Assembly: GCF_030373245.1 (NCBI RefSeq)
Contig: NZ_JAUCZF010000002.1
Span: 186,001-250,000 of the forward strand
DNA length: 64,000 bases
Source of the DNA: Hydrogenophaga sp.
GTDB taxonomy: Bacteria; Pseudomonadota; Gammaproteobacteria; Burkholderiales; Burkholderiaceae_C
Direction of reading: 5' to 3'
This document shows, in pieces, positions 48,617 to 61,611 of the stretch (position 1 is the stretch's first letter; every line of letters starts with the position of its first letter). A program made the position numbers and the translations under genes. The notes below the pieces were generated by a model that saw only the letters and a program-made list of their open reading frames with translations, searched no databases and was not told where the DNA came from.

Positions 48617-48792
48617 GGGCGCGGGCCACCGCACCGCCGCCTGACCGGAGCGCGGACGGCCCCATGGCGGCCGCCATGCCCACATGCCGGCCGGGTTTAT
48701 GCGAGGCGGCGGGCGGGCGGGTAGACTTCTTGGTTGCCCTACCGCGGCACCCCACCACCGATCCCGATTTTCCGCACAGGAGACAAGCCCCC

Positions 48793-49884
48793 ATGGCCGT
48801 AGACCAACAAGCGCTGCTGAATGCCCTGCAGGCCGTGACCGATCCCAATACCGGCCGCGACTTTGTGAGCACCAAGGCGGTCAAGAACCTGCAGATCACC
48901 GACGGCGATGTGGCCTTCGATGTCGAGCTGGGCTACCCGGCCAAAAGCCAGATTCCGGCGCTGCGCCGCGCGCTGATCGCTGCGGCCAAGGCGGTGCCGG
49001 GCGTGGACAACGTGTCGACCAACCTGGTGGTGAAGATCGCAGCGCACGCGGTACAGCGTGGCGTGCAGCTGCTGCCGCAGGTGAAGAACATCGTGGCTGT
49101 GGCCTCTGGCAAGGGTGGCGTGGGCAAAAGCACGACCGCCGTCAACCTGGCGCTGGCGCTGGCCGCTGAAGGCGCCAAGGTCGGGATTCTGGATGCCGAC
49201 ATCTACGGCCCCAGCCAGCCCATGATGATGGGCGTGGAAGGCCGGCCCGAGAGCGCCGATGGCCAGACCATGGAGCCGCTGGAGAACTACGGCGTGCAGG
49301 TGATCTCGATCGGCTTCCTGATCGACCGCGACGAAGCCATGATCTGGCGCGGCCCCATGGCCACCCAGGCGCTGGAGCAGCTGCTGCGCCAGACGAACTG
49401 GAAAGACCTGGACTACCTGATCGTCGATATGCCGCCCGGCACCGGTGATATCCAGCTCACGCTGTCGCAGCGCGTGCCGCTCACGGGTGCCGTGATCGTC
49501 ACCACGCCGCAGGACATTGCCTTGCTGGACGCGCGCAAGGGCATCAAGATGTTCGAGAAGGTGGGTGTACCCATTCTGGGCATCGTCGAGAACATGGCGG
49601 TGCACGTGTGCGAGAAGTGCGGCCACACCGAGCACATCTTCGGCGCCGACGGCGGCAAGAACATGGCAGCCGAATACGGCATGGACTACCTCGGCGCCCT
49701 GCCGCTGAACATGAGCATCCGCGTGCAGGCCGACAGCGGCATGCCCAGCGTGGTGGCCGACCCCGACGGCGAGATCGCTGGCATCTACAAGACCGTGGCG
49801 CGCCAGCTGGCGATCAAGATCGCAGCCAAGTCCAAGGACTTCTCCAGCAAGTTCCCGAGCATCAAGGTGTCCAAGGACACCTGA
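48793..49884 (+). CDS. apbC: Fe-S cluster carrier ATPase Mrp/ApbC
   Basis: 363 residues from the ATG at 48793, with AGGAG 10 bases upstream. An N-terminal MIP18/DUF59 domain (about residues 1-90) precedes the ParA/MinD-type ATPase with the deviant Walker A GKGGVGKST near residue 106, DADIYGPSQPMMMG, and the CxxC cluster-binding site HVCEKCGHTEHIFG. It binds and transfers 4Fe-4S clusters. The gene is followed by a strong terminator. Confidence 0.95.
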   Translation: MAVDQQALLNALQAVTDPNTGRDFVSTKAVKNLQITDGDVAFDVELGYPAKSQIPALRRALIAAAKAVPGVDNVSTNLVVKIAAHAVQRGVQLLPQVKNIVAVASGKGGVGKSTTAVNLALALAAEGAKVGILDADIYGPSQPMMMGVEGRPESADGQTMEPLENYGVQVISIGFLIDRDEAMIWRGPMATQALEQLLRQTNWKDLDYLIVDMPPGTGDIQLTLSQRVPLTGAVIVTTPQDIALLDARKGIKMFEKVGVPILGIVENMAVHVCEKCGHTEHIFGADGGKNMAAEYGMDYLGALPLNMSIRVQADSGMPSVVADPDGEIAGIYKTVARQLAIKIAAKSKDFSSKFPSIKVSKDT

Positions 49885-49905: not shown

Positions 49906-49931
49906 AAGCCGGCGTTTGCCGGCTTTTTTTG
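49906..49931 (+). terminator. Rho-independent terminator after apbC
   Basis: An 8-bp perfect stem (AAGCCGGC/GCCGGCTT) with a GTTT loop and a run of T residues lies 21 bases past the apbC stop. It isolates apbC from the receptor/phosphorelay operon. Confidence 0.92.
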
Positions 49932-50112: not shown

Positions 50113-52182
50113 ATGTTTCAACACCACCGACCCGGCCCAAGCGCGTCCCAGCCTCGCAGCCGGGCTGAAAGCTCGCTGCGGGCGCGCCAGCGGGCGTGGC
50201 GACTTCGCCCTCTCGTGATGGCCATGGCCTGTCTGCTGAGCGAAGCGGCGCTCGCCGCTCAGCCTCCGGATACGACCTGGCTATCGCTGGAAGAGCTCAT
50301 GAGCATCGAGGTCAGCTCGGCGGCCAAGCGCCCGCAGCGCCTGGCGGAAGCGTCCACCGCCATTTACGCCATTGGTCGGGAAGAGATTCGGCGCTCGGGG
50401 GCCACCAATATTCCGGATCTGCTGCGCACCGTTCCCGGTGTCCACGTGGCGCAAATCGACGCCAGCCGTTACGCGATCAGCATTCGCGGGTTCAGCAACC
50501 GCTACAGCGGCAAGTTGCTGGTGCTGCAGGACGGGCGTTCGCTCTACAACCCGCTGTTCAGTGGCACCTATTGGGAAGCGCAAGACGTCGTGCTGGAGGA
50601 CGTGGAACGCATCGAAGTGATCCGCGGATCGGGCGGCACCCTGTGGGGCGCCAACGCCGTCAACGGCGTGATCAACATCATCACGCGCAACGCCAGGGAC
50701 TCGCAAGGCACGTTCGTCGAGGCCAAGGGGGGCAGCCTGGAAAGCGGCGTGGTGTTGCGCCACGGCGGGGAACTGGGTGAGGACGGCCACTTCCGCGCCT
50801 ATGCCAAGCTGGACAAGCACGATCCGCTGGAAACGCCTACCGGACAGGACGCCCACGACGCCTGGGATCAGAAGCGGGCAGGCTTCCGGGTCGATCTGAC
50901 GCCACGGCCAGCCGATACCGTCACGATTCAGGGTGACGCATACGAAACGGATGCCCAGCAGCGCTCGCTCTTCATGTCGCCAACCACGTTGACGTCGAGC
51001 TTTGTGCCGGACACGGCCCGGCTCTCGGGTGCCAATCTGCTGGCTCGCTGGCAGCACCAGGACAACGACCAGGCCAATTGGCAGCTGCAGGCCTTTGTCG
51101 ATCACACCCAGGTTGACGACGCGACGCAAAAGCAGCATGTCGACACATTCGACATCGAATGGCAGCACCGGTTGAAGCTGTCCACTTCACAGGATCTGAC
51201 CTGGGGTCTGGGCTACCGCAACGTTCGCGTGGCGCTCGATGGCAGCTTTACCGTCAACATCGCCCCTCCCCAACAAAGCCTTTCGATCTACACAGGCTTC
51301 GTCCAGGACGAGATCCGTCTGCGAGACGATCTGCTCCTCACGCTGGGCACCAAGCTGGAGCACAACGACGACACCGGCTACGAAGTGCAGCCCAGTGCCC
51401 GCCTGCAGTGGCGTGCTACCCCCACCGACAATTTCTGGGCCGCCGTGTCTCGTTCGGTGCAGACGCCTTCTGTGGCAGCCACTTCAACCTTTGCCCATGT
51501 CGGCGCCCAGCCAGTGCCGATGCTGGGCAGCGCGGTGGTGGGTGTGCGAGGCAACCCCGATGTCCGGTCGGAGGTGATGCTTTCGCGAGAGATCGGCTAC
51601 CGGGGCCAGTTTGGTCCAGACGTCAGCCTGGACCTTGCAGCCTTCTACAACACCTACGACCGACTGGTCTCCAGAGAGATGAGCGGCCTGAGTTTCGCCC
51701 CGTATCCCCTCATCACCATGGGATTTGACAACCTCATGGAAGGCAAGACCTACGGCATCGAGCTGGCAGGCAACTGGCAGCTTTCACCCGCTTGGCGCAT
51801 GCACGGCAGCTACAGCTGGCTCAAGATGGACTTGCGCGCCAAGCCCGGCGGGCAAGGAGTTCTGGGGTTCGGCGCAGCCGGCAGCTCGCCGGAACACATG
51901 CTGCAGCTGCACAGCTTGCACAAAGTGTCCCACAACCTGGAACTCGATGCGGCCCTGTACTTCAGCAGTCAGCTGTCTTTCACGTCCCAGGCAGGGACAG
52001 TCCCCGTCGAGAAGTCCACCCGGTTCGATCTGCGCCTGGGCTGGCAGCCTTCGCGCAATGTCGAAGTGAACCTGATTGGTCGCAATCTGCTGGACAAGAG
52101 GCGCGCGGAGTTCATCGGTGAGGACGTGACTTCGAGCGAAGTGCCTCGCAGCCTGCTGTTGCAGGCGAAGTGGAAATTCTGA
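50113..52182 (+). CDS. TonB-dependent outer-membrane receptor
   Basis: 689 residues from the ATG at 50113 (GGAGAG ribosome-binding site). A long basic N-terminus leads into a signal peptide (RPLVMAMACLLSEAALAAQ). Near residue 60 is LEELMSIEVSSAAKRPQRLAEA, then a plug domain (IPDLLRTVPGVHV ... GGTLWGANAVNGVINIITRNA) and a 22-strand-type barrel ending in a C-terminal aromatic, WKF. The ligand is unknown; the plug type is one I recall next to YfiR-family and kinase genes, rather than a siderophore receptor with iron-uptake neighbours. First of six tightly packed genes. Confidence 0.93.
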   Translation: MFQHHRPGPSASQPRSRAESSLRARQRAWRLRPLVMAMACLLSEAALAAQPPDTTWLSLEELMSIEVSSAAKRPQRLAEASTAIYAIGREEIRRSGATNIPDLLRTVPGVHVAQIDASRYAISIRGFSNRYSGKLLVLQDGRSLYNPLFSGTYWEAQDVVLEDVERIEVIRGSGGTLWGANAVNGVINIITRNARDSQGTFVEAKGGSLESGVVLRHGGELGEDGHFRAYAKLDKHDPLETPTGQDAHDAWDQKRAGFRVDLTPRPADTVTIQGDAYETDAQQRSLFMSPTTLTSSFVPDTARLSGANLLARWQHQDNDQANWQLQAFVDHTQVDDATQKQHVDTFDIEWQHRLKLSTSQDLTWGLGYRNVRVALDGSFTVNIAPPQQSLSIYTGFVQDEIRLRDDLLLTLGTKLEHNDDTGYEVQPSARLQWRATPTDNFWAAVSRSVQTPSVAATSTFAHVGAQPVPMLGSAVVGVRGNPDVRSEVMLSREIGYRGQFGPDVSLDLAAFYNTYDRLVSREMSGLSFAPYPLITMGFDNLMEGKTYGIELAGNWQLSPAWRMHGSYSWLKMDLRAKPGGQGVLGFGAAGSSPEHMLQLHSLHKVSHNLELDAALYFSSQLSFTSQAGTVPVEKSTRFDLRLGWQPSRNVEVNLIGRNLLDKRRAEFIGEDVTSSEVPRSLLLQAKWKF

Positions 52183-52184
52183 TC

Positions 52185-52730
52185 GTGCGTCGATTCGGTT
52201 CGAATCGCTGGCTCGCAGGAGGGCTGCTGGCCCTGATCTGCTGGGCTGGTGGCGAACCTGCATCGGCACAGTCTGTGAGTGAACAGTCCGTCAAGGCCGG
52301 CTTCATCTACAACTTCGTGAAATTCACGCAGTGGCCCGGCGCGCGAGAGGGCGACCGTTCGCCGCTGCAGGTCTGCACGCCTGGATCACAGCCTCTGGAC
52401 GGGCAATTTGCTCTGCTGCAAGGCCGTGCCATCGGCAGCCGCGGCATTGACATCCGCACCAATGTGCCCGCCAGCGAATGGCGCAACTGCCAGGTTTTGT
52501 TTCTGGCCGAAGGCGACGCACACCGCCTGGAAAGTGTATTGCGCAGCCTCGGCGGCGCACCAGTGCTGACCCTCGGTGACATACCCGAATTTGCCCAGTC
52601 GGGCGGCATGATCGGCTTGAAGATCGAAGACAGCCGAGTGCGTTTCGACGTGAATCTGGGTGCTGCGCAGCGCGCGGGTCTCACACTCAACAGCCAGATG
52701 CTCAAGCTGGCCGGGCAGGTGGTGAGATGA
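52185..52730 (+). CDS. YfiR family periplasmic protein (DUF4154)
   Basis: 181 residues from a GTG two bases after the receptor stop; an earlier GTG at 52170 is possible. A signal peptide ends near ASA-QS (residue 29). The mature start VSEQSVKAGFIYNFVKFTQWP is the YfiR signature, and GGMIGLKIEDSRVRFDVNL with LNSQMLKLAGQVV forms the conserved C-terminus. In Pseudomonas, YfiR is a redox-sensitive periplasmic inhibitor of the diguanylate cyclase YfiN. Here Cys64 and Cys102 are spaced much like one of its disulfide pairs. The gene overlaps the next kinase gene by 4 bases, so that kinase is the likely partner. Confidence 0.9.
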   Translation: MRRFGSNRWLAGGLLALICWAGGEPASAQSVSEQSVKAGFIYNFVKFTQWPGAREGDRSPLQVCTPGSQPLDGQFALLQGRAIGSRGIDIRTNVPASEWRNCQVLFLAEGDAHRLESVLRSLGGAPVLTLGDIPEFAQSGGMIGLKIEDSRVRFDVNLGAAQRAGLTLNSQMLKLAGQVVR

Positions 52731-54232
52731 AGCTGCGCGACCTCTCCATCGTTCGCAAGCTGGGCCTTTTGCTGGCTTTCAACACGGCAATCGCCGTGAT
52801 CGCCATCGCATTGGTGTTCAGTGTGGGTACGGCGGTGAACCGCTACCAGGCTGCGCAGGAACAGCTGATGGCCATGGCCAACGTCATCGGTGAAAACAGC
52901 CGCGCCGCGCTGGCATTCAGCGATCCGGAAAGCGCGCGAAAGATACTGCTGTCCTTGCGCAACAAGCTGGAAATCGAGAGTGCCCGGCTGACCGATTCAT
53001 CGGGCAATGAGTTTGCAACCGCCATTTTCTCGACGGCAGAAGGCGCCACGAAACCGCTGCTCGAAGAACTCACAACCCTGCTGTTTCCCGACCGGTTGAC
53101 GGTGGCTAACCGCATCCAGGACGGAAACAACACCGTGGGCGGCATAGAGCTGACGGCCCACCTGTCGAACATCTGGCTCGATTTGATGGAAAGCCTGGCG
53201 CTGATGGTGCTCATCGCCATCGCACTGTCCGCGCTCGCCGTGTTCTTCGGCCTTCGCATGCGCCGCATCGTGACCGACCCCATTCTGAGCCTGGCCGATG
53301 TGTCGCACCGCGTTTCGCGTGAGCGCGACTATTCCTTGAGAGCGACGAAAGTCGGCAACGACGAAATCGGCGCGCTGGTCGACGACTTCAACCGCATGCT
53401 GTCCGAAATCGAAATCCGAGACGAGGCCCTGCGGCGGGAGCGCGAGTCGCTGGAGGAGCGGGTGGAGCAGCGCACCGCCGATCTGAAACTGGCCATGGAG
53501 ACGGCCGAACGCGCCAACAAGGTGAAGTCGGAATTCCTCGCGACAGTGAGCCACGAGCTGCGTACGCCACTGACCGCGATCGCAGGCTCCATCGGCCTGG
53601 TGTCTGGAGGGGCTCTGGGTGAGCTGCCTGCGCAGATTCATCAGATGCTGCTGATCGCGCAGAAGAACAGCCAGCGCCTGACCTTCTTGATCAACGACTT
53701 GCTCGATGTGGAAAAGCTCATGGCCGGCAAGCTGCAGTTCGACATGGTGTGCCAGGAAGTGATGCCGCTGGTGGAGCAGGCGCTGGTGGCCAACCAGTCG
53801 TACGCCGAGCAATTCGGCGTGACCTACACACTGACTCACCGCTCTGATGGGGTGTTGGTGGAAGTGGATGCGCAGCGCCTGCACCAGGTTTTGGCGAACC
53901 TGCTGTCCAATGCCGCCAAGTTTTCAGACGCTGTTGCGCAGGTCGAGGTATCGGTGCACCAGTACGAAAGCCGGGTCCGGATCGAGGTGCGCGATCACGG
54001 CGCGGGCATACCGATCGAATTCCACTCGCGCATCTTTCAGAAGTTTTCCCAGGCCGATGCATCGGACACGCGCCAGCGGGGCGGGACCGGCCTGGGGCTG
54101 GCGATCTCGCGAGAGCTGGTTGAGCGCATGGGTGGCACGATCGGCTTTCACTCAGAGCCTGGCCAGGGTGCGATCTTTTACTTCGAGCTGCCGATGAAAC
54201 CAGCCCAGGTTGAAACAGAGAGGGCCGCATGA
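52727..54232 (+). CDS. Sensor histidine kinase with CHASE8-type periplasmic domain
   Basis: 501 residues. Membrane helix (about 13-35), CHASE8-like periplasmic domain ([20 protein letters not shown] onward, to about 150), second helix (153-176), HAMP (177-232), coiled coil, then HisKA with phospho-acceptor His276 ([12 protein letters not shown]) and HATPase_c (N394 box [27 protein letters not shown]). CHASE8 is also the sensor of YfiN, the known YfiR target, so the YfiR protein encoded just upstream probably acts on this domain. There is no receiver domain in this protein; phosphate may pass to receivers in the next three genes. Confidence 0.93.
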
Positions 54233-56442
54233 CCACGCGCTGGACGCTGAGCCGTCGATTTCTCGCGCTGTCGCTGGTGCTGACCCTGCTCACCGGTCTG
54301 GGCTTGGCCTTGCTGGCCCGTCAGACGGTTCAGACCCAGCTCAACCAGATGGCCGGCAGCCTGAACGAGGACGCCGCGCGAGTGCTGAAGAACTCGCTCT
54401 GGAACGACATTTCCAGTCTGCTGGACATTCCCGGCGTGCCTTCCCGGGAGATGCTTCTGGCGGAAACGAACCACGGCGTTCTGCGCTCCCGGCTGGCCGT
54501 GCTCATGCAGGGTTCCGAGATGGCCAAGGTCAAGGTATACAACCGCCAGGGGGTGTGCGTGTTTTCTACCGATCCGGCCCAGATCGGCGAGCGGTCTCCC
54601 GATCATCAAGCCCTGCGCCTGGCGCTGGCAGGCCAGGTGTCGAGCGGGCAGACCCACCGAGGCCGGTTCGACGCCCTGCACGGACAGATCTCCAACGTGG
54701 ATCTGTTCCAGAGCTATGTGCCGATCCGCGATGGTGAGCAGGTACTGGGCGTCTTTGAGGTGTACCAAAACGTCACGCGCATCAAGGCACAGGCGGACCA
54801 GTCTCTGCAGGGCATTCTGGCGGTGCTTTTGGGTGTGCTGTCCCTGATGTTGCTCTTGCAGTACGTGGTCGTGCGCTACCTGGACCAGCGACTGAAACTC
54901 AAAGAGACGGCGCTGGCCAATCGCAACGCCGAACTCACCGTGGCACTGGAAGAGTCCCGCCAGGCCAACCGGGTGAAGTCCGAGTTCATCTCCACCGTGA
55001 GCCACGAGCTGCGCACGCCACTCACCGCGATCAACGGTGCGCTCGGCCTGATGGCGGGCGGCGCCTTGGGCGAGCTGCCGTCAGCGGTTCGCGAGATGGT
55101 CTGCATGGCCAACAACAACGGTGCTCGCCTGGGTCACCTGATCGACGACCTCCTGGACATGGAAAAGCTCATGGTGGGCAAGCTGCGACTCGTCATGACG
55201 GCCCAGCCTCTGATGCCCCTGGTGGAGCAGGCGCTCGCCGACAACCAGCCTTACGCAGAGCGCCATGGTGTGACTTTCCTACTTGAACAACGGGTCGACT
55301 GGGTTCAGGTGGCGGTGGATGCTCAGCGCCTGCAGCAGGTGCTCTCCAACCTCCTGTCCAACGCGGTGAAGTACTCCCCTGCCGGAGCGGTGGTGGAGTT
55401 GACAGTGAGTGAAGGCGAGGGGACGGTCCGCGTGTCGGTGCGCGACGACGGTCCCGGTATTCCGGATGCGTTTCGTCAACACGTGTTCGATAAGTTCTCG
55501 CAGGCCGATGCTTCCGATACCAAACTGAAAGGCGGCACCGGTCTGGGGCTGGCGATCTCTCGCGAGCTGATCGAGCGCATGGGCGGTCGAATCGGTTTTT
55601 ACTCGGTACCGGGCCAGGGCGCCTGCTTCCACTTTGATCTGCCCTGCAACCGGCCCGAGACAGCGCAAGTTCCGGCGCCCGACAACGGGCAGCTCCCCCG
55701 TATCCTGACGGTGGAAGACGACGCCGACATGGCTCGCATGCTGGGTCTGATGCTGAACCGGGCAGGCTACGCGGTGGATTGTGTCGCCAGTGGCGCCGAA
55801 GCACTCGAACGACTGGCCCAGCGCAGCTATGCCGCGATGACGCTGGACCTGCTGCTGCCCGACATGCGAGGGCAAGACCTGATTCGCCATCTGCGCCAGG
55901 AGCCCACCACCGCCACCCTTCCTGTTGTGGTCATTTCCGTCATCGCCGATGAGGCGGAAACGGGGCTGGGCCAACTGGGGAAGGTCGGTATCGAATGGCT
56001 GGCCAAGCCGATTGACCAGAATCACCTGCAGGCCGCCCTCAACCGCCTGATCGCACCGGGCGAGCACGGCCATCCGCGGGTGCTGCATGTGGAGGATGAC
56101 CGGGAGCTCCACGACGTGGTGCGTGCCATGGCCGGTGGTCGTTTCGACTTTGAGCTTGCAACCAATCTGCGCGAGGCACGCGCCCGGGTGGCGCTGGAGC
56201 GTTTCGACGTGGTGATCCTCGATCTGGGTCTGCCCAACGAATCCGGTTGGGATCTGCTGCCCGAGATCCGGGCCCAGCAGCCGGGCACCCGCGTGGTGGT
56301 GCTGACCGGAGGCGAGGAACTCGGTGAAAACGAGGGCCGCGTTGACGCGGTGTTGAAAAAATCCCAGGTCTCGCCGCAGCGCTTGCTGGACGCCATCGAC
56401 GTCCGCTTGGCCCGAGATACCGACCAGAAAGGTGAGACATGA
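54229..56442 (+). CDS. Hybrid sensor histidine kinase with two receiver domains
   Basis: 737 residues. Membrane helix 11-31, a periplasmic sensor of about 160 residues resembling a double-Cache-like domain (MAKVKVYNRQGVCVFSTDPA; SYVPIRDGEQVLGVFEVYQ), helix 194-216, HisKA with His259, HATPase_c (to about 472), then REC1 (Asp540, Lys593) and REC2 (Asp665). Its kinase core is strikingly like that of the preceding gene (shared [19 protein letters not shown] and FSQADASDT blocks), so the two look like a tandem duplication with different sensors. It overlaps the previous gene by 4 bases. Confidence 0.93.
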   Translation: MTTRWTLSRRFLALSLVLTLLTGLGLALLARQTVQTQLNQMAGSLNEDAARVLKNSLWNDISSLLDIPGVPSREMLLAETNHGVLRSRLAVLMQGSEMAKVKVYNRQGVCVFSTDPAQIGERSPDHQALRLALAGQVSSGQTHRGRFDALHGQISNVDLFQSYVPIRDGEQVLGVFEVYQNVTRIKAQADQSLQGILAVLLGVLSLMLLLQYVVVRYLDQRLKLKETALANRNAELTVALEESRQANRVKSEFISTVSHELRTPLTAINGALGLMAGGALGELPSAVREMVCMANNNGARLGHLIDDLLDMEKLMVGKLRLVMTAQPLMPLVEQALADNQPYAERHGVTFLLEQRVDWVQVAVDAQRLQQVLSNLLSNAVKYSPAGAVVELTVSEGEGTVRVSVRDDGPGIPDAFRQHVFDKFSQADASDTKLKGGTGLGLAISRELIERMGGRIGFYSVPGQGACFHFDLPCNRPETAQVPAPDNGQLPRILTVEDDADMARMLGLMLNRAGYAVDCVASGAEALERLAQRSYAAMTLDLLLPDMRGQDLIRHLRQEPTTATLPVVVISVIADEAETGLGQLGKVGIEWLAKPIDQNHLQAALNRLIAPGEHGHPRVLHVEDDRELHDVVRAMAGGRFDFELATNLREARARVALERFDVVILDLGLPNESGWDLLPEIRAQQPGTRVVVLTGGEELGENEGRVDAVLKKSQVSPQRLLDAIDVRLARDTDQKGET

Positions 56443-56825
56443 ACAGTCTGCAACGTGTGCTTTATGTGGAAGACGAGCCCGACATTCAGGCGGTGGCCCG
56501 CCTGGCGCTGGAGGTGGTGGGAGGGCTGATGGTCAAGACCTGTTCTTCGGGAGAAGAGGCGTTGCGGGAAGCGACCGCCTTCGAGCCCCAGCTGATCCTG
56601 CTCGACGTGATGATGCCGGGCATGGACGGACCCGGTACCCTGCGCGCGCTGCGCCAGCGGCCGTCGCTGGTCGATGTGCCGGTGGTCTTCATGACCGCGA
56701 AAGTGCAACCGCAGGAGGTGTCCTCCTACACCGCCATGGGTGCGCTGGGTGTGATTGCCAAACCCTTTGATCCCATGACGCTGGCCACCCAGGTGCGCGG
56801 ATTGTGGGGCGAACACCATGCCTGA
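56439..56825 (+). CDS. Single-domain response regulator
   Basis: 128 residues, one receiver domain with no output part. Acidic pair Glu11/Asp12, phospho-acceptor Asp56 (LILLDVMMPGMDG), Thr86 and Lys108 (IAKPFDPM) are all in place. It overlaps the preceding gene by 4 bases and the following one by 8. Single receivers in phosphorelays usually shuttle phosphate between a kinase and an Hpt domain, and the next gene starts with an Hpt domain. Confidence 0.95.
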   Translation: MNSLQRVLYVEDEPDIQAVARLALEVVGGLMVKTCSSGEEALREATAFEPQLILLDVMMPGMDGPGTLRALRQRPSLVDVPVVFMTAKVQPQEVSSYTAMGALGVIAKPFDPMTLATQVRGLWGEHHA

Positions 56826-59800
56826 TATGCCGCCTGTGGGCTCGCCGGACCAAATCCGTTCGCATCTAGAGCAACTGCAACGCGAGTTTGCCGGGCGCCT
56901 GCCCGCGCGGTTCGACGACATGCGTCGCTGCCATGCCCAACTGGGCGCCAGTGGCTGGACCACCCAAGAGGCCGAAACCCTGCACCGCCTGGTGCACAGC
57001 CTGACAGGCTCTGCCGGTACCTTCGGCATGCGAAACCTGTCGGACACGGCCCGCCAGGTGGAGGTCCATCTCGCTCGCATGTTGCGCCAGGGCGACGTGC
57101 CCGATAGGGACGAATGGAACGCCATCGGCGAGGGCATTGAGCGCATGGCAGAGATGGCCTTGTCCAGACCCGACATGGAAGCTCAAAGTGCCCACATGCC
57201 GTTGCTGCCTGCCGTGGCGGCTTCGGGTTCGGTGGTGCATCTGGTGATGGACGACCGTGTGCAGGCGGGCGCTTTGCGCGCTGCCTTGCAGGAAGGCGGT
57301 CACCGGGTCTGCCTGTACGAAGGTCTCAAGGCCTTCCGGCGCGATTTTGTGCACCGTTCAGACGCGGCCACCGAGGTCGTGGTGCTGGACGTGGCGTTCG
57401 CGCCCGGCGACCCGGGTGGCGCCGGTCTCTTGCGAGACCTGCGGCTCGGGCAGCAGTGGCGCACACCGGTGGTGGTGGCCCTGGACGATGGCGCCCTGGC
57501 TGCGCGCCTGGCCTTTTCGCGCGCAGGCGCCAGCCGCACCCTGGTGCGGCCTTTGGATCCGGATCGGCTGGGGGATGCGCTGAACATGCTGACCGGTCGG
57601 CAGCCCCGGCAGGCCTACCGGGTCCTGCTGGTCGATGACGACCCGGTGATGCTGGAAGTGCAGGCCGGGGCGTTGCGCGCGGTCGGTATGCAGGTGCGCG
57701 CGATCTCCCAGCCCCTGCACACACTGGAGGAACTGGACAGGTTCCAGCCCGATGTGCTGCTGCTCGATGTGTACATGCCAGACGCCAGTGGGCCGGAGCT
57801 GGCGGCGGTGCTGCGTGAAAACGAGGCCCACCTGCACCTGCCTATCGTGTTTCTCTCGGCCGAGACCGACATGACGCAGCAGTTGCTGGCGCTGAATCTG
57901 GGAGGGGACGACTTTCTGGTCAAGCCGGTGCAACCGGCCCACCTGGTGGCCGCTGTGACCGCGCGCGCGCGCCGGGCGCGCCAGGGTGAAAGCCTGAGAC
58001 AGCGCCTGCAGACCACAGTCTACGAACGCGACCGCGAGCACCTTGCTCTGGATCAGCACGCCATTGTCAGTATCGCCAATGGCGAGGGCAACATCACCTA
58101 CGCCAACGACCTGTTCTGCCAGGTCAGTGGCTACCGCCGGCGCGAGCTTCTGGGCATGAACCACCGCCTGCTGAGCTCACCCCAGAACGGCAAAGGTTTC
58201 ATCCGCTCGATTTGGCACTCCATTTCCGAGGGTCGTGTCTGGCACGGCGAGATACGCTGTGTGCGCAAGGACGGCAGCAGTTATTGGGTCGAGTCCACCA
58301 TCACCCCTTTTCTGAACTCGGCCGGGCGGGTGTACCAGTACGTCGCGATCCAGACCGATATCAGCCACATCAAAGCCGCGGAGGCCACGCTGCGCGCGCA
58401 ACGCGACATGCAGCGCGTCATCAGCGAAGCCGCTGCCCGGCTGATGGCGGCGCCCTCGGCCGACACGCAGGACGTGATCTACGAGGCGATGCGCCATAGC
58501 GGCGAGCAACTCGGTGCCGACCGGTCGTACCTCTTCCGATTCTCTGGAACAGGAGCCCTGGACAACACCCAGGTGTGGAGCGCTCCAGGCATGGATCCCA
58601 TGGACGACAGCCTGAAGACCACACCGGTTGAAGGCACGCCCTGGCTGCGGCAGCAATTTGAGCGCCATGGCATTCTCAATGTGCCCGATGTTCAAGCTTT
58701 GCCGCCCGAGGCGGCGCTGGACCGGGCGCGCATGGAAGAGCGCCAGATTCGGGCCTTTCTGGCCTTTCCACTGCAGCGCAATGGGCAGATTTTCGGGTTC
58801 ATCGGATACAGCGCGATGCGCCAGCGGCGCGATTGGACTTCCGACGAGATCGAACTGCTGAAGGTGCTGGCCGATGTGGTGGCCAGCGCGGTGGCGCGCA
58901 AGCTGGCGGAGGCCGCATTGCGCGAAAGCGAATCCCGGCTGAACTTCCTGGTGTCGTCCAGCCCTGTGGTGATCTACACCCGTTCGGTAGAGGCTCCTCA
59001 CGCGGCGGCGTATGTCAGCCCCAATGTGAGGCAGCTGATGGGCTTTGAGCCCGAAGCCTTGACCAACGATCCGGAGCAGGGCCTGGGCTTGGTGCATCCG
59101 GACGACCGTGGACGCATGTCGAGGGAACTCCCGCTGATCCTGTCGCAAGGGGTGGACCTCAGCGAATACCGCCTGCGGCGCGCGGATGGCAGCTACCGCT
59201 GGGTGCAGGACCAGCGTCGCCTGGCGCGCGACGCTCAGGACCGACCAGTCGAGATCATTGGGTACTGGCTGGACATCACCGAACGCAAACGCATCGAACA
59301 CGAGTTGCTGATGTTCAACCGTGACCTGGAGCAGCGCGTGGCCGAGCAGACGCGCTCAGTGATCGAGAGCGAGCGTTTCGCCCGCGCCACGCTGGATGCC
59401 CTGAGCGCGCGGGTGGTGATTCTGGACAGCGAAGGCAGGGTGCTGGCGGCCAACCGGGCCTGGGAGGCCTTCGGCGCCCTGGAGATGGTGCAGACAGGCT
59501 CCAGCTACCTGGACATCTGTGACAGCACCTGTGCCGCTGACAATGCCGTCGGTCAGCCTTTGGCCAACGGCATCCGCGCAGTCATCCAGGGTGATGCGTC
59601 GGAATTCCTGCACGAGTATCTCTGTCGCCGCGAGGCCGAACCTCGCTGGTTCCTGTGCCGCGTCGAGCGCTTCCCTGGCGATGGCGCGGTCCGCGCCGTG
59701 GTCTCGCACGAGAACATCACACAGATGAAGCTCATCGAGCGCCAGCAACTGCGCTCGCAGCGCCTGGAAAGCCTCGGCACGCTGGCTGGTGGCGTGGCGC

Positions 59801-60918
59801 ACGATCTCAACAATGCCCTTGCGCCTGTGCTCATGGGCATGGCGATGCTCAAGGAGCAATACCCCGAAGAACCCCGCATGTTCGACATGATCCGCGCCAG
59901 CGCACAACGCGGGGCGGACATGGTTCGGCAGCTGCTCACCTTCGCCAAAGGCGTCGAGGGGGAGCGGGTGCCGGTGTCGCCCGAGCGCCTGGTGCATGAG
60001 CTGCACAGCCTGATGCGCGGTAGCTTTCCGAAGAACATCCAGCTGCAGGTGGACAGTGGCGTCGGGGTGCCCATGGTCATCGGTGACGCCACACAGTTGC
60101 ACCAGATACTGCTCAACCTGTGCGTCAATGCCCGAGACGCCATGCTCGACGGTGGCGTACTTTCGCTGGGCGCACAGTCGATCGAGATAGATGCCGGGTA
60201 TGCCCGATCGGTGCCAGATGCCCGGCCGGGTCTCTACGTGTGCTGGCGGGTGAGCGACACGGGCAGCGGCATTCCCCCAGAGGTGCTGGACCGCATCTTT
60301 GACCCTTTCTTCACCACCAAGAGCCCTGACCGCGGGACCGGCCTGGGTCTGTCCACGGTGCTGGGCATCGTGAAAAGCCATGGCGGGTTTGTGCAGGTGT
60401 ATTCGCCGCCCGGCTGTGGAGCAACTTTCTCTGTGTACCTTCCCGCCGATGTCTCGGGCAACGTTGCCGCTGCGCCCGAAGCAGCCAGCGTGTTCCGGGG
60501 CCAGGGAGAAACTGTGCTGTTCGTGGACGATGAGGCCGCTGTGCGTGAAGTGGGTCGCAGCGTGCTGCGGCGACTCAACTTTGAGCCTTTGGTCGCTGTC
60601 GACGGCGCCGATGGCCTGGTGCAGGTGGCTCAGCACCGGCATGTCTTGCGCGCTGTCATCACCGACCTGCACATGCCACACATGGACGGCGTGGCCTTTG
60701 TGCGCGCTCTGAGGCAAGCCCATCCTGATCTGCCTGTGGTGATAGCCAGTGGCCGGGTGGATGATTCGGTGGCCCAGTCTCTTGATGACCTGGGCGTCAC
60801 GTCCCGGCTTGACAAGCCGTTCTCCGAAAACCAGATGGCGAAGGTGCTCAGCGAGCTGCTGGTCGCCAGGGAACCAAGCCGGCAGACCTTCGATACCCGC
60901 AACATCAGCGTGAGTTAG
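56818..60918 (+). CDS. Large soluble hybrid kinase: Hpt-REC-REC-PAS-GAF-PAS-PAS-HisKA-HATPase-REC
   Basis: 1,366 residues without membrane segments. Hpt domain with His60 ([13 protein letters not shown]); a degenerate receiver (about 138-258, VVVLDVAF with Asp191 but Arg in place of the Lys before Pro); a complete receiver with Asp317 ([12 protein letters not shown]) and Lys369; PAS (about 405-520); GAF (about 530-695); PAS_3-type PAS (about 705-825, VHPDDRGRM and WVQDQRR); a further PAS (about 855-970); HisKA with His995 ([16 protein letters not shown]); HATPase_c (to about 1210); C-terminal receiver with Asp1283 and Lys1333. The HisKA type differs from that of the two upstream kinases. No DNA-binding, GGDEF or EAL domain is present. 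Confidence 0.92.
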
Positions 60919-60942: not shown

Positions 60943-61611
60943 GTGCCTTCGCGTACAGTGCCGGGTGTGGACAACAACAATGCACCCGATCAAAAAACAC
61001 CCGCTGGCAGGCCTGTTCTGGATGTGGATGTGGTCATGCGGCGCGAGCCCGTGGTCGGCCCCATGGCGCGCTGGCAACCCTGGCGCTGGGTGCTGAGCGA
61101 TGTGCTGCTGACGGGCGAGCCCTCTTGGTCGAGTGACGATGTCGAAGCACCGCCTGCTGAGCCGCGCGAAGTGGCGCCGCTGGAAGGCGCAGAGGCGGTG
61201 GCTGGCGCGTCCTACTGGCTGTACCCGGGGCGGCGCGTCACGCTGTTTCGCGACGATGCCGAAGGCTATTTCCTCAACCTCTCCAGCCCGAATCCTTGTT
61301 TCTGGGTTTTCTGGCGCCTTGACGAAGCCCGCCTGATCGAGGGTGAGTCAGTCGCCGTGCCCCAGGTCGTCACGCTGAGTTACCACGATGCGGGCCGTTG
61401 GCTCGATGCCCAGGAGCGAGTCGACCAGGTGCCCGCGCCGGCTCCCGTGGTGGACTGGCTTCGCGGTTTTGTGGCCGAGCACTACCAGGCTGAGCCCAAG
61501 CGGCGCAAGCGGCCCGACAGTTTCAAGCCGCTGACCGATCGCTTCGGCCAGCCGGTGCGCATTTCCACCGACAAGGTGCATGGACCTCGCTCGCCCGGGA
61601 GTGGCGCATGA
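60943..61611 (+). CDS. DUF3305 domain protein
   Basis: 222 residues from a GTG with an AGGGGG ribosome-binding site about 6 bases upstream; a GTG at 60967 is an alternative. DUF3305 covers about residues 28-170: VDVVMRREPVVGPMARWQPWRW, GASYWLYPGRRVTLFRDDAEGYFLNLSS-type core, and PQVVTLSYHDAGRWLDAQE. The family is found with formate dehydrogenase accessory genes (DUF3306, ferredoxin, TorD-like chaperone). Function not established. Confidence 0.88.
   Translation: MPSRTVPGVDNNNAPDQKTPAGRPVLDVDVVMRREPVVGPMARWQPWRWVLSDVLLTGEPSWSSDDVEAPPAEPREVAPLEGAEAVAGASYWLYPGRRVTLFRDDAEGYFLNLSSPNPCFWVFWRLDEARLIEGESVAVPQVVTLSYHDAGRWLDAQERVDQVPAPAPVVDWLRGFVAEHYQAEPKRRKRPDSFKPLTDRFGQPVRISTDKVHGPRSPGSGA

Follow-up and report, generated by a model that had tools for sequence, protein, structure and literature searches.

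A Hydrogenophaga operon that may join a TonB receptor, YfiR and CHASE8 input to a phosphorelay recurring across the Burkholderiales

How might a signal received at the outer membrane enter a cytoplasmic phosphorelay, and where would it go when the genes of that relay encode no output domain? These questions are raised by an operon of Hydrogenophaga sp. at positions 50113 to 60918, on the plus strand, of a 64,000-nucleotide stretch of contig NZ_JAUCZF010000002.1 (the window). Its six open reading frames, every one intact, encode a TonB-dependent receptor, a periplasmic YfiR-like protein, two membrane histidine kinases (HK1 and HK2), a lone receiver (REC) and a large soluble Hpt-containing protein (Table 1). 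An earlier note, made from the sequence alone, had described this six-gene layout, and Pfam matched the domains that it named. On the basis of sequence comparisons, we propose that a TonB receptor-YfiR-CHASE8 input has been joined to a relay made of a kinase-REC-REC protein, the lone receiver and an Hpt-REC-REC protein, a reading to which we assign a probability of roughly 0.6. The same gene order, with a single membrane kinase, is found in seven other genomes of the genus and is thus not a product of chance.

The receptor-YfiR-CHASE8 module

The receptor scored 655.6 bits against the NCBIfam model NF053590 (TOL_0244), above the curated cut-off of 645; Pfam found the Plug and the TonB_dep_Rec barrel alone, with no STN signalling domain. 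The YfiR-like protein matched PF13689 (DUF4154, YfiR/HmsC) with 138 bits and aligned with the solved structure of Pseudomonas aeruginosa YfiR (4zhu) at E 4e-10, and HK1 carries a CHASE8 domain (PF17152, 54.5 bits). In P. aeruginosa, the Phe of an AAVVF motif and F162 of YfiR have been assigned to the YfiR-YfiN contact (PMC3375315; statements from this and the other papers cited here refer to the portions covered). Residue F159 of the window YfiR, numbered from the alternative start at 52170, aligns with F162, and residues 60 to 64 of HK1 read AALAF, a motif of the YfiR-contact type. The contact Phe was present in all 55 CHASE8 domains compared, including that of the window, 44 of them of the kinase type. 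Because HK1 has this motif and no AAxxF-type pattern matched in HK2, the target of YfiR is likely HK1 rather than HK2.

How constant is this neighborhood? Matches to the YfiR model NF053591 occurred in 49 of 150 genomes of the family, our own included. We mapped domains on all reading frames at the best-scoring 40 of the 75 places outside our own genome, a choice by which the counts lean to close relatives. A same-strand receptor adjoined YfiR in 37 of the 40 loci (the exceptions being L041, L053 and L072), and a CHASE8 partner was likewise found in 37 of 40, with a kinase output in 27, a GGDEF output in 7 and no recognized output in 3. In L075, one of the seven CHASE8-GGDEF loci, the CHASE8-GGDEF gene precedes the receptor. 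The reverse search (E 1e-120, 150 genomes including our own, the 8 best candidates per genome, compared by eye) returned 24 NF053590-like receptors, 21 of which have a YfiR place beside them in the same orientation; at G056 the neighboring YfiR place is on the opposite strand, and the receptors at G096:C21 and G143:C12 had none. Two loci, L064 and L070, have the reversed order CHASE8-GGDEF, YfiR, TonB receptor. An N-terminal receptor motif was set aside, its pattern having matched 10 of 37 with an uncertain reading frame.

One potential alternative is that the receptor is only a transporter, and that YfiR senses envelope redox or stress and gates HK1 without it. YfiR has been linked to DsbA and to its own cysteines (PMC3375315), a redox role is also argued for HmsC in the literature covered, the window receptor is devoid of STN, and 3 of the 40 YfiR loci lack a same-strand receptor. 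However, the adjacency of receptor and YfiR in both search directions (37/40 and 22/24) would be needless for a mere transporter, and the window YfiR retains one of two cysteine pairs. We regard this explanation as unlikely, if still a serious one. The path from outer membrane through periplasm into the relay, as first suggested, stands to the extent that gene order and conserved residues carry it.

The first three genes are, as far as we found, a neighborhood known to NCBIfam without a described function. The initial impression that the neighborhood was undescribed has to be narrowed in two respects: the models NF053590, NF053591 and NF053592 cover receptor, YfiR and kinase, and a 2012 study had already described YfiR-YfiN modules whose output is a histidine kinase, among YfiN-like proteins whose outputs were of the HPT, sensor-kinase and hybrid-kinase types (PMC3375315). 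The word "TonB" does not occur in the covered text of that paper, and no title or abstract describing a pairing of YfiR with a TonB receptor was found in the partly covered open PMC literature, in which PMC9611778 and PMC8228696, both outside the text covered, contain the two terms.

The relay core and its two ends

Which parts of the operon could pass phosphate onward? All nine phospho-sites named from the sequence alone proved exact: His276 in HK1; His259, Asp540 and Asp665 in HK2; Asp56 in the lone receiver; and His60, Asp317, His995 and Asp1283 in the large protein. Counted only among homologues passing set cut-offs, His276 was kept in 40 of 40, Asp540 and Asp665 in 25 of 26 each, Asp56 together with Thr86 and Lys108 in 50 of 50 each, and His60 and Asp317 in 32 of 32 each. 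The five receivers recognized at first were all there; a sixth, in the large protein, had been overlooked. This degenerate receiver retains Asp191, a position that is Asp in 28 of 32 homologues, and has Leu and Arg in place of the usual Thr/Ser and Lys (read by eye). The end kinase of the large protein found its best NCBIfam match in CckA, at 315.8 bits against a cut-off of 1000.

To find relatives of the relay, residues 1 to 261 of the large protein served as the query; this family-wide Hpt search touched 225 of 399 genomes, nearly all through weak receiver matches, and six of its top places were examined further. Three of them (L129, L130 and L132), which lie in three further genera of this family, encode a kinase-REC-REC protein, a lone receiver and an Hpt-REC-REC-GGDEF protein in which Pfam confirmed the Hpt, both receivers and the GGDEF domain; the best model for these three Hpt proteins was PleD, at 204 to 211 bits against a cut-off of 474. 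Their lone receivers are 64 to 71% identical to that of the window, the next best unrelated receiver reaching 39%. This makes the lone receiver the most conserved part of the relay across genera, compared to 39 to 54% for the kinase parts. Of 399 genomes of the order, 53 (our own among them) yielded close homologues in a search with the lone receiver (E 1e-28, the 10 best candidates per genome scored), with 55 places outside our own genome. We mapped 40 regions of the best places together with L129, L130 and L132, giving 43 loci, each within 7 kb and counted by eye, with L209 and L217 looked at a second time. The relay ended in Hpt-REC-REC-GGDEF in 26 of the 43, and in three genomes of the order (L220, L227 and L228) the lone receiver is fused with Hpt-REC-REC-GGDEF in one frame. 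The relay proposed earlier gains from this recurrence of its core parts together.

Could the lone receiver itself be the output, acting like CheY or DivK on a motor or another kinase, with the large kinase only tuning it? Such a role would fit a protein that is the best conserved of the relay, that is retained while sensors and ends vary, and whose best solved-structure matches include single receivers and CheY. The three fusions to Hpt-REC-REC-GGDEF, however, suggest a partner within the relay and not an effector acting freely, and we think it rather improbable that the signal stops there. That no output domain is encoded was correctly noted at the outset, since Pfam found none in the six genes; what we add to our reading of a joined input and relay is that this absence looks derived, because GGDEF terminates the homologous relay at 26 of 43 loci.

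Within the genus, matches to the window YfiR were present in 12 of 67 genomes including our own, at 17 places, 15 of which were mapped besides the window (G413:C124 was left out). Nine of these are close YfiR copies, with 55 to 65% identity, and seven belong to complete sister operons (L032, L127, L140, L141, L142, L144 and L146) that encode a TonB-dependent receptor, YfiR, a CHASE8 hybrid kinase, a lone receiver and an Hpt protein with a kinase end. Six of the seven hybrid kinases bear two receivers, that of L127 a single one; in L141, one receiver precedes the PAS part of the Hpt protein. As for the other two close copies, L143 ends at a contig edge and has CHASE8 and kinase parts that fall in two frames, and L145 comprises the first three genes only. 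The latter (L145 1-4404, G402:C1 near 1254850) is a second TonB-dependent receptor-YfiR-kinase copy, on the same strand behind a boxA-like gene. The distant copies L147 to L151 encode a TonB-dependent receptor, YfiR and a CHASE8-PAS-kinase, and for L152, another distant copy, no receptor appeared in the domain map.

In comparison with L032, the window is 69% identical in the receptor, 64% in YfiR, 76% in the lone receiver and 60% in the large protein. HK1 is 64% identical to the first part of the single L032 kinase, and residues 226 to 724 of HK2 are 59% identical to its second part. Within this sample, the window alone divides the hybrid kinase between two proteins, the second of which carries a different sensor. 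Since a single CHASE8 hybrid kinase is present in all seven complete sister operons, the two membrane kinases of the window probably do not reflect an old two-input design. A tree of 13 kinase cores cannot tell whether HK1 and HK2 are sisters (p-AU, the approximately unbiased test, 0.284, with low supports), and we make no claim of tandem duplication.

The sensor of HK2 spans about residues 30 to 190 (54316 to 54798 in the window) and matched no Pfam family at E 0.01. It recurs in 32 of the 399 genomes searched across the order, our own included; the 14 non-self loci mapped (L155 to L168) comprise 8 GGDEF-EAL proteins and 5 kinases, and at L162 a sensor frame adjoins a kinase frame. We take note of it as an unnamed periplasmic sensor domain, often present on GGDEF-EAL proteins. 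Its AlphaFold2 model, made without an alignment, had a mean pLDDT (predicted local distance difference test) of 54.2, too poor for fold comparison.

Are the two modules then merely neighbors that exchange no phosphate? They are separate elsewhere, as evidenced by the 43 relay loci outside the genus, where no TonB-dependent receptor, YfiR or CHASE8 was present within 7 kb. In all seven complete sister operons, however, CHASE8 sits on the relay kinase itself, a protein that also bears the receiver or receivers, and we consider the neighbors-only explanation highly improbable.

Taken as a single system, the operon would work as follows. A ligand at the receptor may alter the amount of YfiR held at the outer membrane. 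YfiR would dock on the conserved Phe patch of the HK1 CHASE8 domain and either repress or gate HK1, as it does with YfiN, and HK1, once freed, would autophosphorylate at His276. Alone or paired with the similar HK2, HK1 would load the REC-REC part of HK2, whose own sensor may provide a second input. Phosphate would presumably then move to Asp56 of the lone receiver and on to His60 and Asp317 of the large protein. The PAS/GAF-associated, CckA-type kinase of this protein and its terminal receiver could finally hand the signal to a regulator encoded elsewhere.

How might the operon have arisen? In one possible lineage, receptor-YfiR-CHASE8 was spliced to a standing relay, the cyclase at its end was swapped for a second-tier kinase, and the hybrid kinase was then split in the window; we hold the odds for and against this history to be even. 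If it is right, a cyclic di-GMP pathway has become a pure phosphate network in bacteria nearly without cyclic di-GMP, and the split in the window, with a new sensor on the receiver-bearing half, has produced a two-input kinase pair. New here are the joining of the modules, the exchanged end and the split kinase, the NCBIfam neighborhood being known and the relay recurring across the order.

Genome context, insertion site and possible ligand

The genome that contains the window, on a contig of 549 kb (3.86 Mb in total, 10 contigs, 90.85% complete), has one GGDEF match, on contig C1. Eight sampled genomes with a close YfiR copy (G000, G208, G402, G412, G413, G420, G426 and G430; G427 lay outside the sample), our own among them, have 1 to 3, and 14 genomes of other genera, picked for their relay or YfiR loci, have 22 to 77. 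The kinase end is compatible with a GGDEF-poor genus. Three sampled genomes assigned to the genus (G455, G457 and G458) have 25 to 50 matches; they may be misplaced in it or form a separate lineage. Might the output still be cyclic di-GMP, with the relay acting in trans on the one GGDEF-EAL protein of the genome? That 26 of 43 homologous relays end in GGDEF, that 22 of the 40 mapped YfiR loci have a same-strand GGDEF gene within 8 kb (a REC-containing one in 10 of the 27 kinase-type loci) and that a single GGDEF match is available in our own genome would suit this possibility. The GGDEF-EAL protein, read in part by eye, nevertheless has PAS-like stretches before GGDEF-EAL and no receiver, and its gene lies on a different contig; we judge such an output improbable.

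Several observations weigh against the joined system and its derived end. On the input side, the window YfiR and HK1 remain below the cut-offs of their NCBIfam models (118.8 bits against 125 for NF053591, TOL_0243, and 145.2 against 194 for NF053592, HK_near_YfiR_like). The contact Phe is kept in 44 of 58 YfiR proteins, not in all, and Cys69 and Cys107 of the window YfiR align with the first cysteine pair of the P. aeruginosa protein, the second being absent. The proposed contact between receptor and YfiR is drawn solely from gene order. In the relay map, the Hpt frame stands alone in 10 of 43 loci (L209 at a contig end), and 6 of 43 have no Hpt protein (L192, L193, L204, L215, L221 and L231; L204 is a short contig, and L231 has an Hpt on the opposite strand). 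Kinase-type Hpt proteins also exist outside the genus, in L128 (another genus) and in L212 (another family), the latter being the one kinase end among the 43. In L212 a kinase-receiver-receiver-EAL frame follows, and this EAL gene suggests that the exchange of output is not tied to cyclic di-GMP loss; L128 and L212 both speak against a strict link. Finally, 57 of 60 sampled genomes of the genus have 0 to 5 GGDEF matches with or without the operon, so that GGDEF poverty is a trait of the genus, and at 90.85% completeness GGDEF genes may be missing from our own assembly.

Where does the operon sit? In neighborhoods free of it, the common order is metG, apbC, a substrate-binding protein, benzoate-CoA ligase, boxD, boxR, boxC and then, where reached, DUF3305 (benzoate-CoA ligase, boxD, the boxR-type regulator, boxC and the window apbC were assigned by NCBIfam). 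The cassette separates apbC from the box cluster in L127, L140, L142 and L146. In the window, where that cluster is missing from this place, the cassette is flanked by apbC and DUF3305. A divergent box cluster, with 66 to 75% identity, is present on contig C9 of the same genome (150092, L188). Genome G425 has a similarly divergent copy. The box (aerobic benzoyl-CoA) cluster adjoins six of the eight close copies with readable flanks (L127, L140, L141, L142, L145 and L146, the boxA before L145 being identified by eye from its first residues), the two others being the window and L144. None of 19 further bclA neighborhoods has the cassette between apbC and bclA. In 13 of these 19, apbC is on the same side of the box cluster; 11 of the 13 (L172, L173, L176, L178-L181 and L183-L186) leave no room for a cassette, and in the other 2 (L174 and L175) the gap is taken up by what looks like a set of type I secretion genes. 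The remaining 6 stretches are without apbC (L177, L182, L187, L188, L189 and L191). The apbC-box interval is an insertion site that takes different inserts.

Does the box cluster reveal the ligand? BclA is present in 61 of 67 genomes of the genus (E 1e-100), and benzoate was considered as the ligand. Since apbC stands beside the box cluster without the cassette as well, most of this association can be put down to insertion at a fixed site, and we rejected benzoate as a firm claim. In Thalassolituus oleivorans, TOL_0244 was up sevenfold on n-C28 compared to Tween 80 and is 40.3% similar to OmpS (PMC6304351). OmpS of Alcanivorax dieselolei is described as starting an alkane signaling cascade (PMC5174103, PMC9788540), and the known TonB receptors include one for a lignin-derived aromatic (PMC6874591). 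By analogy with these alkane data, and with the box neighborhood, a hydrophobic or aromatic carbon source is weakly suggested as the ligand; our confidence in any named ligand or effector is low. If the receptor family does answer hydrocarbons or aromatics, the operon would offer a direct route from surface contact with a substrate to gene control.

The genes are packed as tightly as first described: the junctions from YfiR to the large protein are overlaps of 4, 4, 4 and 8 bases, and receptor and YfiR are separated by 2 bases with the GTG at 52185 as the YfiR start, or overlap by 13 with the GTG at 52170. Between apbC and the receptor gene lies a hairpin of 8 pairs (6 of them G-C) with a T tail, which ranked first in a terminator scan that found 11 such sites in 11.3 kb against 6.7 expected. 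No tRNA genes, and no Rfam families at the gathering threshold, were found in the window.

Table 1. Features of the operon and its borders, in window coordinates
Feature	Position	Strand	Basis
TonB-dependent receptor, TOL_0244 family (Plug + barrel)	50113..52182	+	Pfam; NF053590
Periplasmic YfiR-like protein	52185..52730	+	PF13689; PDB YfiR alignment
HK1: CHASE8-HAMP-HisKA-HATPase, no receiver	52727..54232	+	Pfam
HK2: unnamed periplasmic sensor-HisKA-HATPase-REC-REC	54229..56442	+	Pfam
Lone receiver, Asp56	56439..56825	+	Pfam
Soluble Hpt-REC(degenerate)-REC-PAS-GAF-PAS-HisKA-HATPase-REC protein	56818..60918	+	Pfam, residue check
Hpt domain of large protein, His60	56914..57126	+	Pfam
Degenerate sixth receiver in large protein	57235..57582	+	23.4 bits, below Pfam cut-off
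Large-protein receiver with Asp317; precedes GGDEF in relatives	57622..57957	+	Pfam
PAS-GAF-PAS, CckA-like kinase core (His995), terminal receiver (Asp1283); GGDEF there in relatives	58051..60846	+	
Terminator-like hairpin + T run, 3' of apbC	49906..49925	+	Consensus match only
apbC, outside the system, one border of the insertion site	48664..49884	+	NF008669, 424.2 bits
DUF3305 gene, outside the system	60943..61611	+	PF11749

Comparison with known systems

An STN domain is the defining trait of TonB receptor transducers of the FecA type. The window receptor, without an N-terminal STN, differs in this from a FecA-type transducer working with an anti-sigma factor. OmpS is similar in being a TonB-type receptor said to signal for alkanes, a likeness by description only. 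HmrABCX of Caulobacter was considered as a relative and, as far as it is described in the text covered, is not related.

The closest likeness on the input side is to YfiBNR/TpbB of P. aeruginosa and DgcN-YfiR of Escherichia coli, which share a periplasmic YfiR and a CHASE8/PAS partner with the contact Phe. In YfiBNR, YfiB is an OmpA-like lipoprotein, whereas here a TonB receptor is present and no YfiB was found among the six genes, the operon being what was searched. The membrane partner has a GGDEF output there and HisKA-HATPase on HK1 here, and YfiR has two cysteine pairs there and the first pair only here. The Yfi-type modules of PMC3375315 share the YfiR-CHASE8 core, a kinase output and the conserved contact residues, and the covered text of that paper contains no comparable relay. 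The TOL_0244/TOL_0243/HK_near_YfiR_like neighborhood consists of the same first three gene families; the window YfiR and HK1 fall short of its cut-offs, and the relay genes are extra. The TonB receptor would represent an outer-membrane input other than YfiB for a YfiR-CHASE8 module, and a defined receptor makes the stimulus of a YfiR-type repressor testable.

On the relay side, the end kinase scores best on the model of CckA and the Hpt-REC-REC-GGDEF proteins of the relatives on that of PleD, both of Caulobacter and both far below the cut-off. The nearest counterpart is the Burkholderiales GGDEF cassette, in which homologues of the kinase, lone receiver and Hpt-REC-REC parts follow one another as they do in the window. 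The cassette combines a PAS/GAF-type input with a diguanylate cyclase output, whereas the window combines a TonB-dependent receptor-YfiR-CHASE8 input with a PAS-GAF-PAS-kinase-REC output. Input and output of the relay core would thus both have been exchanged and the middle kept, and the GGDEF-end, kinase-end and split-kinase operons form a matched set for asking which part decides the output.

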